Shown here: positions 41,225 through 43,105 of the stretch, piece by piece
Layout: the number at the start of each line of letters is the position of its first letter
Numbering within the stretch: position 1 is the stretch's first letter
Origin: Halodesulfovibrio sp. MK-HDV
GTDB taxonomy: Bacteria; Desulfobacterota; Desulfovibrionia; Desulfovibrionales; Desulfovibrionaceae
NCBI RefSeq assembly: GCF_009914765.1
Contig: NZ_WYDS01000008.1
Span: forward strand, 10,955-74,954
Direction: 5' to 3'
Length of the DNA stretch: 64,000 nucleotides
The notes under the pieces: model-generated
Database searches by the model: none
The model's input: the letters and a program-made list of their open reading frames with translations, nothing else
What the model was told of the DNA's origin: nothing
Program-made: the position numbers and the translations under genes

Positions 41225-41324
41225 TATGAAATCGAGCCGCGCAATCAAAAAAACATCGCTGGCGATAGTTGGCTGTGGTATTGTGAGAGCTGATTTAGAA
41301 GATAGCGAGATGACAGGAGTAGCA

Positions 41325-42197
41325 ATGCACACCCTTGTTTTTGATGTATACGGAACCCTTGTCGATACAACGGATATCATTACGCTGCTTGAAGTAAAAT
41401 TGGGCGAGCGTGCTGCTTTTTTTGCCAAACAATGGCGGAATAAACAGCTGGAGTATTCGTATCGAATGGGATTGATGCGATGGTATAAGCCTTTTTCGCA
41501 GTGTATGCGGTATGCTTTTGAGTATACGTGTGAAGAATTCTGCGTTTCGTTTACAGCCGAAGAAAAGGAAGCTTTATTCCTTCGTAACCTGTCGCTTCCG
41601 GCATTTGATGATGTGTCGACCGCTATGCCTAAGTTTGCTCTGACCGATGCAGATTGTTTTGCTTTTAGTAATGGTACAGCAGCGGATGTGAATGCCGTGC
41701 TGACGTATGCCGATATTCACCCTTATTTGCAGGATGTAATAAGCGTAGACCCGATCAAAATGTTCAAGCCATCGCGTATTGCGTATATGTATCTGGTCGA
41801 AAGTATTGCACGCTATAAGGCCGGTCTTGAGAATCCAGACGTAGTTAAAAAGCAAGGAAATGAGGCGGCAGACTCTCCTTCGCAAATATCAGATTTGAAT
41901 GCTCCAGAACGTGGTTGTTTGCATTATGTAGAATCCGGTATGGACGACGAGGACGAATCAGATACCCATTCTCAGGGGAGCTCTTTGTCATTACCAGACT
42001 TGAATACGGTCTGGCTCATTTCTTCTAACCCGTTTGATGTTATCGGCGCAAAAGTTGCCGGATTACAGTCAGTGTGGATTCGTCGTTCAGCCTCAAGTGT
42101 TTTTGACCCATGGGGCGTTGAGCCGACCATTACTGTTGCTAATCTGACAGAGCTTTATGACGTGTTGCGATACCGGAATGTTATTATCCCAATGTAG
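41325..42197 (+). CDS. HAD hydrolase, haloacid dehalogenase type II, with acidic insert
   Basis: A 290-residue HAD-superfamily enzyme. The nucleophile is in VFDVYGTLVD, motif II in CFAFSNGTAADVN, the lysine in DPIKMFKPSRIAY, and motif III is WLISSNPFDVIGAKVAGLQS. This matches L-2-haloacid dehalogenase, but about 60 residues of acidic, Ser-rich sequence (from GLENPDVVKK to SSLSLPDLN) are inserted before motif III. ATG 41325 has AGGAG five bases upstream. Substrate unknown; haloacid dehalogenation should not be assumed. Confidence 0.85.
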   Translation: MHTLVFDVYGTLVDTTDIITLLEVKLGERAAFFAKQWRNKQLEYSYRMGLMRWYKPFSQCMRYAFEYTCEEFCVSFTAEEKEALFLRNLSLPAFDDVSTAMPKFALTDADCFAFSNGTAADVNAVLTYADIHPYLQDVISVDPIKMFKPSRIAYMYLVESIARYKAGLENPDVVKKQGNEAADSPSQISDLNAPERGCLHYVESGMDDEDESDTHSQGSSLSLPDLNTVWLISSNPFDVIGAKVAGLQSVWIRRSASSVFDPWGVEPTITVANLTELYDVLRYRNVIIPM

Positions 42198-42227
42198 TGA
42201 AACACACAGTGAAGAAGGGACATAGAC

Positions 42228-42878
42228 ATGGTTGAAAGATTATCAGAGAAACTTGACGCTCGAAGAGAAGAGTTCACAAAGATGGCTCCTCCTTCAGCTC
42301 AGGAAGTGATGAAAAAGTCTGCACAACACCTCAAGGATTCAGGTCTTCTTGATGGTGCTAAGCATGTTGGAGATCGGGCTCCTGATTTTGTATTAAAAAA
42401 TATTCAGGGTGACTCTGTGGACTTTGCAACACTGCGCAAAGACAGACGCGTGGTGATCTGCTTCTATAGAGGCGGTTGGTGACCATACTGCAACCTTCAG
42501 TTGAAGGCATTGCGTGATGTTCAAAAAGATATCGAAGCCCGCGGCGCAACCTTGATAGCCATCTCACCTGAGTTGCCTGACAACTCGCTTTCCGATGAAG
42601 ACAAGCTTGCGATCCCGTTTGAAGTATTGACTGACCCAGATAACGGCATTGCCCGTCAGTTCGGGATTGTTTTTTCTTTAGATGATGCGTTACGCGATAC
42701 ATACAAGAGCTTTAATCTTGATCTTGAAAAAGCGAACGGCAACGACAAATGGGAACTGCCGATTCCGGCTGTCTATATTATAGATACGGACGGAAGCATT
42801 TTGTACACATTCTTAGATACGGATTACACCGTCCGACTCGAACCATCTGAAATTTTGTCTCTGCTTGATACTCTCTAG
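42228..42878 (+). CDS. Selenocysteine-containing peroxiredoxin-like protein (in-frame TGA)
   Basis: The AhpC/TSA-like protein is 216 residues if TGA 42480-42482 is read as selenocysteine. The first 84 codons carry the family blocks DRAPDFVLKNIQGDSV and VVICFYRGGW; the TGA follows; then PYCNLQLKALRDVQKDIEARG continues in the same frame to TAA 42878. In relatives the motif is FYRGGWCPYCN, so the TGA replaces exactly the peroxidatic cysteine, giving UPYC in place of CPYC. A SECIS-like hairpin starts eight bases after the TGA. The product would reduce peroxides. Weak GGGA precedes the ATG. A standard gene caller would split or truncate this gene. Confidence 0.88.
42480..42514 (+). promoter_or_regulatory. 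Selenocysteine TGA and SECIS-like hairpin
   Basis: Right after TGA (42480-42482) the stem CCTTC (42494-42498) pairs with GAAGG (42503-42507) around the loop AGTT, which exposes GU as in bacterial SECIS loops. A lower helix GCAA (42490-42493) with TTGC (42510-42513) is separated by a two-base bulge. The loop is about 19-22 bases from the first base of the TGA, close to the spacing in Escherichia coli fdhF. Confidence 0.78.
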
Positions 42879-43065
42879 CAGAGCCGTTGTCTGAAAAGTC
42901 TCTCGATAGGCCAACAGCTATAACGAGCTTTAGTCATAAGGCACAACTTTGATTGAACCGTTCCTTAGGCTGGATTTGGTAGTGACATGCCTTTTTGTCA
43001 CTTAATCGGGAACGCAGAGATGGATATCCTGTCCATCAAGACAATAATACGAAAGTTTTTGTAAT

Positions 43066-43105
43066 AAAAAACATCCCCGCTTGTGCTGATGTATAAGCGG
43101 GGATG
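43066..43105 (-). terminator. Terminator of the second sigma-54 regulator gene
   Basis: CATCCCCGCTT (43072-43082) pairs with AAGCGGGGATG (43095-43105), and six A at 43066-43071 give the U tract on the minus strand. Confidence 0.9.

Follow-up and report, generated by a model that had tools for sequence, protein, structure and literature searches.

Does the in-frame TGA that crosses a gene of Halodesulfovibrio sp. MK-HDV end its translation, or is it read as selenocysteine (Sec)? The gene lies in a stretch of 64,000 nucleotides, which we call the window, and a sequence-only reading of this stretch had proposed a true selenoprotein. That proposal is supported by the presence of the Sec machinery in the genome, by an aligned codon that is TGA or Cys in 133 of 133 close family matches, and by a SECIS-like hairpin past the codon, and because of these three lines of evidence we regard recoding as the best reading. 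Judged from comparative sequence data, the UGA is almost certainly read as selenocysteine and the gene encodes a selenoprotein. The locus is a well-supported addition to the selenoproteins, of a sort that standard gene callers would split.

The TGA-containing frame and its neighbours

The frame contains a single TGA, at codon 85, followed by 131 codons before the terminal TAG, and translates into 216 residues (Table 1); in this the sequence-only reading was accurate. We refer to the product as the Sec85 protein. Under the standard code the same stretch gives two open reading frames, 42228-42482 (84 aa) and 42501-42878 (125 aa, TTG start). Because of this, and because no NCBIfam model exceeds its cut-off for the Sec85 protein, it is plausible that automated annotation splits the gene. 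The PF00578 (AhpC-TSA) domain match (residues 47-193, 101.5 bits, cut-off 26) spans both sides of the TGA, as had been claimed when family sequence was recognized on either side of the codon.

Table 1. Features of the locus, in window coordinates
Feature	Position	Strand	Basis or remarks
HAD-family hydrolase gene	41325..42197	+	PF00702, 32.1 bits (cut-off 26.4)
Ribosome-binding-site-like AAGAAGGG ahead of the ATG at 42228	42212..42219	+	Read from the sequence
Peroxiredoxin-like (UxxC) protein, predicted to contain Sec	42228..42878	+	216 residues, Sec85, TAG stop; PF00578; TGA orthologs in the genus
UGA very probably read as selenocysteine (residue 85)	42480..42482	+	Aligned codon TGA or Cys in 133 family matches
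Putative bacterial SECIS-type hairpin	42484..42519	+	Fold; agreement with the SECIS model; double change at 42491/42512
Cys88 codon, predicted partner of Sec85 in UxxC; also within the 5' strand of the lower stem	42489..42491	+	

The genus orthologs have purine-rich stretches (GGGA/GGAG) in roughly the position of the ribosome-binding-site-like sequence. Upstream on the same strand, the HAD hydrolase gene (for which we chose the start at 41325; the open reading frame as listed begins at 41226) ends 30 nt before the Sec85 gene, with which it is probably co-transcribed. Downstream lies a convergent sigma-54 activator gene, and between the two is a terminator-like hairpin of 15 pairs (43072-43105). 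The HAD and sigma-54 neighbours flank the Sec85 gene in all six genus loci examined, which represent four distinct species (in the HAD gene, L020 equals L101 and L021 equals L102), and in none of five other family loci with about 1.5 kb of flank, a Cys relative from the same genus included. Histidine kinase and efflux homologues are also found near the gene in some genus loci, where the available stretch reaches far enough.

Selenocysteine machinery in the genome

The sequence-only reading staked its proposal on the presence of a Sec machinery, and all four components were found in the source genome (4.17 Mb, 54 contigs, 97% complete): selA (630.3 bits, cut-off 267.9), selB (385.6 bits, cut-off 242.25), selD (344.4 bits, cut-off 125) and tRNA-Sec (84.6 bits, gathering score 47), the last also called by ARAGORN as tRNA-SeC with anticodon TCA. 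The presence of selA alone is weak evidence, because it was matched in 355 of the 395 genomes of our phylum sample.

The selD frame carries an in-frame TGA of its own, in an AAGUAAK motif near the N-terminus, and selD (L169:255-1355, minus strand) is a candidate selenoprotein gene in its own right. When the window was crudely scanned for further frames interrupted by a single TGA, four candidates emerged; the scan misses the Sec85 gene itself and so proves nothing.

The codon and the selection around it

TGA orthologs are present in five of ten genus genomes, the query included, with one per species, and the other four are 74-78% identical to the query. Among the remaining genus genomes, one has a 41% identical, stop-free relative and four are without a match at E up to 1e-20. 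Contigs of Halodesulfovibrio sp. N3 and H. spirochaetisodalis JC271 carry coding sequences identical to two of the genus orthologs; L020 and L021 duplicate two genus orthologs exactly, and five distinct sequences were used.

Across the wider family, we aligned codon 85 in the 133 matches (duplicates included) that cover it at E up to 1e-18, drawn from 165 loci. The codon is TGA in 44, TGC in 52 and TGT in 37, the last two giving Cys in 89. At E up to 1e-20, the phylum sample of 395 genomes contains 29 with a family member, all but one of them (28) with a TGA form; 27 of the 28 are among the selA matches, the exception being G688, a genome that is 82% complete. The class sample has 21 matching genomes out of 348; their matches comprise 14 TGA and 8 stop-free forms, which shows that Cys forms are also frequent close to the window. 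One set of relatives, the best 80 of 403, leans towards Cys forms, as one of its six search patterns had Cys at the codon site.

Purifying selection acts on both sides of the TGA. Over the ten pairs of the five distinct genus orthologs, pN is 0.15-0.27 before the TGA and 0.10-0.18 after it, with pS at 0.58-0.89 and 0.60-0.85, respectively. Low pN and high pS past the TGA thus show that the downstream half is maintained as protein in this frame.

These data bear directly on the rival view that the TGA truly ends translation or stems from a sequencing error, which would make the locus a pseudogene or leave an 84-residue fragment, with the downstream half dead or a separate gene. The standard code does yield two open reading frames of 84 and 125 aa, but the TGA is common to five genus genomes, one per species, the family-bearing genomes of the phylum sample have it in 28 of 29 cases, and the codons past it are under purifying selection. 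Additionally, the 125-aa frame would start at an internal TTG inside a predicted helix (residues 86-104). We therefore consider a stop or an error highly improbable.

A SECIS-like hairpin past the codon

Just downstream of the TGA the RNA can fold into three outer base pairs (42484-86/42517-19), a 5-bp lower stem (42489-93/42510-14) and a 5-bp upper stem (42494-98/42503-07), with a CA bulge (42508-42509) and an AGUU loop (42499-42502). Numbered with the TGA as 1-3, the pairs are 5-7/38-40, 10-14/31-35 and 15-19/24-28, and the loop is 20-23. The GU-bearing loop and bulged stem that had been recognized by eye after the TGA are thus present in the computed folds. The fold energy is -10.6 kcal/mol for pieces of 43 and 48 nt; in a 71-nt piece that includes upstream sequence (42470-42540), the minimum keeps the upper stem and re-pairs the lower one.

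The hairpin does not stand out from dinucleotide shuffles (z -1.47 to -1.60, with 13-17 of 200 matching it in stability), and for this reason we judged it by synonymous recoding, synonymous variation and the contrast between Sec and Cys forms. It is stabler than most synonymous recodings of the same peptide (p 0.03). Synonymous variation in the genus is at its minimum over codons 89-96, which lie on the hairpin (pS 0.30 against a mean of 0.75, the lowest of 209 eight-codon windows, chosen as the lowest found and not preset). With 12-codon windows the hairpin region comes second of 205, and twelfth when the window is made to begin right after the TGA.

The bacterial SECIS model, as set out in the legend of Fig. 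2 of PMC13188914, has an apical loop of 3-9 nt, an upper stem of 4-16 bp, a G in the first two loop positions, a UGA-loop distance of 16-37 nt and an energy of at most -7.5 kcal/mol. The hairpin of the Sec85 gene agrees with this model in its AGUU loop, with G second and followed by U, in its 5-bp upper stem and in its energy, and its UGA-to-loop spacing of 16 nt falls at the short limit. After removal of 10 duplicates from the 133 matches, the best fold of 48 nt agrees with the model in 37 of 42 distinct Sec forms and fails it in five, whereas among 81 distinct Cys forms it agrees in 6 (Fisher p near 1e-19, uncorrected for kinship). Mean z against synonymous recoding is -1.73 in Sec forms and -0.24 in Cys forms.

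Within the genus, 11 of the 13 hairpin pairs are invariant among the five distinct sequences. In L102 the lower stem is only partly formed. Pair 12/33 (42491/42512) shows a double change from C-G to U-A in two of the five, and pair 6/39 (42485/42518) is formed by A-U in two sequences and by G-C in a third and is open in the other two. In all, three cells differ, two of them at 42491/42512 and one at 42485/42518. The covariation score was reached by 27 of 500 shuffles, with two other measures reached by 186 and 456 of 500, and sliding the 3' partners by +2 gave 0.138 versus 0.123 for the actual pairing. Because the shuffles reach the score and the slid pairing exceeds it, covariation within the genus, taken alone, is only suggestive support. 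An Rfam scan of 42200-42900 at E up to 10 returned two chance-level matches and no SECIS family, and a search of viral contigs for the hairpin pattern found none. On the reality of the hairpin, the comparative evidence is stronger than the fold statistics, and together the data support the view that it behaves as a SECIS element would.

Any readthrough would keep the frame, including one that places a residue other than Sec at the UGA (Trp, or Cys by a suppressor) and needs no selenium. The probability of such selenium-free decoding seems to us close to negligible, since the Sec machinery in the genome is complete, SECIS-type folds are common after the TGA and rare after a Cys codon, and the close family has Cys at position 85, with Trp in none of the 133 matches. 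Under selenocysteine insertion, SelB carrying Sec-tRNA(UCA) would be recruited by the hairpin just past the UGA, and the ribosome would insert Sec at residue 85 rather than stopping.

Protein identity and active site

An AlphaFold2 model, for which 29 sequences were used and Sec was replaced by Cys, reached pLDDT 93.3 and pTM 0.91. It places helices between residues 5 and 43 in the N-terminal part, and a helix over residues 86-104 that begins directly after residue 85. Among solved folds, AhpE and Bcp4, both peroxiredoxins, come nearest, with Z 19.6 and an rmsd of 1.6-2.1 across 148-153 residues; ResA proteins are also in the Foldseek list, lower than the peroxiredoxins. The motif is U85-P-Y-C88, UxxC occurs in all 44 TGA forms, and the residues invariant in the 29 aligned members include Y80, R81, G82, W84, position 85, P86 and C88.

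Profile alignments to 2cx3 (FSPVC), 2ywn and 5epf place Sec85 opposite Ser/Thr and Cys88 opposite the Cys of the PxxxT/SxxC motif, which we take to be the peroxidatic Cys, and the Pro of that motif corresponds to Arg81. In a profile alignment to a ResA variant, residues 85 and 88 fall on its CxxC. Sec85 thus aligns three residues before the peroxidatic position, and we read the protein as a UxxC peroxiredoxin-like protein and not a TxxU peroxiredoxin. This is a small correction to the identity first proposed. The name selenocysteine peroxiredoxin suggests Sec at the peroxidatic Cys, where the profile alignments do not put it. The TGA was said to fall exactly at the reactive Cys of relatives; these do have Cys or TGA at the site in 133 of 133 cases, but the site is three residues before the peroxidatic Cys.

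A classical Sec peroxiredoxin of the TxxU type (PrxU/Bcp), with Sec as the peroxidatic residue, would account for the PF00578 domain and for peroxiredoxins being the nearest folds. We consider it unlikely here in view of the alignment of Sec85 with Ser/Thr, of Cys88 with Cys and of Arg81 with the motif Pro. Looser family matches (E up to 1e-5) include 15 loci (L115-L129) with Thr at position 85, which is the Thr of ordinary TxxC peroxiredoxins, and the PrxU model NF040737 scores only 28.5 bits on the Sec85 protein, against a cut-off of 270. Two other models also stay below their cut-offs, namely the SelL-related NF040769 (40.1 bits, cut-off 120) and PF13911 (21.8 bits, cut-off 27), and the motif is UxxC, not UxxS.

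A separate protein in the same genome fits the TxxU role. This second PF00578 protein, at contig C1:218690-219163 (L166:691-1164, minus strand), has an in-frame TGA in TTGU, the TxxU (peroxidatic) position, and matches NF006960 (thioredoxin-dependent thiol peroxidase) with 243.3 bits over a cut-off of 140. It is a candidate for a second PF00578 selenoprotein, of the Bcp/PrxQ type. As the genome encodes it in addition to the UxxC protein, the organism appears to make both kinds of Sec protein. Four other genus genomes have weak matches of a length similar to this protein, with one TGA each.

For the UxxC protein, the motif points most likely to a thiol:disulfide oxidoreductase or a peroxidase, and the catalytic cycle that we propose is read from that motif. 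The product is taken to fold as a peroxiredoxin, and its active site, Sec85-x-x-Cys88, resembles that of thioredoxin and sits at the N-terminal end of a helix. The Sec85 selenolate would attack a peroxide or a disulfide, and a Sec85-Cys88 selenenylsulfide would then form and be re-reduced by thioredoxin-type partners.

Exchange of selenocysteine and cysteine in the family

How Sec and Cys forms came to replace one another is a more interesting question than the class of the Sec85 gene. The two forms are interspersed in the family tree (seven rows dropped, six of them duplicates and one at a contig edge), with 8-9 label changes on the best trees found, at least three of them on well-supported branches. 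Monophyly of the 39 Sec rows was rejected (p-AU 0.00035) on a 69-row tree with hairpin residues masked, in which 30 Cys rows (16 chosen and 14 random) were kept and three long or second-copy rows left out. Three placements of the genus Sec clade are equally acceptable: joined to a clade of its family in which Sec and Cys are mixed (p 0.67), to a Cys clade (0.46) or to a group of 18 Sec rows (0.45). Since the tree built with the first placement beat the unconstrained one by 8 log units, the fast search had not reached the best tree, and the p-AU value is to be read with that caution.

Recoding and protein sequence meet at residue 91 (42498-42500), where Glu predominates in Sec forms (34 of 42) and Gln in Cys forms (74 of 85). 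Counted by tree rows, after three more were dropped, the link between Sec and Glu91 is strong, with Glu91 found in 33 of 39 Sec rows versus 10 of 84 Cys rows; these comprise only two independent pairs on well-supported branches, too few for a sign test. Hairpins of the 44 TGA matches fall into a GAG-codon type (28), a CAGTT type (9), a GAGCTGCGGTC type (5) and others (2). The commonest (GAGCU-GG) contains the GAG codon of Glu91, and the CAGTT type comprises seven matches from the genus (duplicates included), L142 and L114. The GAGCTGCGGTC hairpin, over the same codons, was seen in L137, L141, L147, L150 and L165, all of family code f61.

Eight of the ten Cys rows with Glu91 come from the order of the window or closer (L105, L109, L110, L113, L130, L131, L133 and L136), and their Glu91 is possibly a protein fossil of a lost SECIS. 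Two of them, L113 and L136, are Cys rows within an otherwise Sec clade of eight (SH-aLRT 99) and are likely reversions from Sec to Cys; L136 no longer folds into the hairpin of its neighbours, and L113 keeps a stem.

The Halodesulfovibrio forms keep Gln91, which fits an independent gain of Sec. We tentatively raise the possibility, which we hold to be somewhat doubtful, that Halodesulfovibrio gained Sec on its own and turned its ancestral NLQLKAL codons into a SECIS hairpin (AGUU at +16). If so, the family would document in nature an exchange of Cys and Sec that happened again and again: the protein would be reshaped whenever a SECIS forms, and Cys forms that have reverted would keep Glu91 and eroded hairpins as fossils. 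With Sec and Cys forms at close range and at least three hairpin designs over the same codons, the family is a good system for studying the origin of SECIS elements and the protein cost of Cys-Sec exchange.

Relation to known systems

The Sec85 protein belongs to a class that other bacteria are already known to have. Among the matches listed in a literature search of titles and the starts of abstracts, none concerned the Sec85 gene, which is no proof of its being unreported; a search for the literal motif GGWU gave no relevant title among the matches listed, figures being outside its reach.

TxxU Sec peroxiredoxins (PrxU/Bcp) have their fold class and Pfam domain in common with the Sec85 protein, whose Sec is shifted by three residues. 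A passage of PMC1088965 sets the UxxC arrangement apart from TxxU Sec peroxiredoxins, and a figure legend in PMC1914089 gives different Sec positions for the TXXU and UXXC families. Of the ResA and thioredoxin-like CxxC proteins, a ResA variant has both its active-site Cys aligned with residues 85 and 88, whereas the best sequence and fold matches of the Sec85 protein are peroxiredoxins. A further relative by name is an AhpC/TSA family selenoprotein with UxxS (cd02970 / PF13911), for which the Olavius symbiont paper is given as the source and which Table 1 of the 2026 review PMC13188914 enters as 'Peroxiredoxin-like family protein'. That label also annotates several plasmid-borne homologues of the Sec85 protein; the motif is UxxS in the listed selenoprotein and UxxC here, and PF13911 stays under its cut-off here.

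The closest likeness is to the Prx-like thiol:disulfide oxidoreductases, which the relevant entries of PMC9312934 and PMC13188914 list as predicted and which also appear in lists in PMC1794560 and PMC2398784. By the domain-plus-motif rule of PMC9312934 we place the Sec85 protein among these selenoproteins, whose published representative is WP_010940744.1, on finding PF00578 above its cut-off, a predicted Sec in UxxC, and Cys homologues in 89 of 133 matches. With the known UxxC/UxxU selenoproteins of this group, from Geobacter, Desulfotalea and marine metagenomes, it has in common PF00578, the UxxC motif, Cys homologues and a hairpin after the UGA. Its points of difference are the signature FYRGGW-U-PYCNLQL and a helical N-terminal part.
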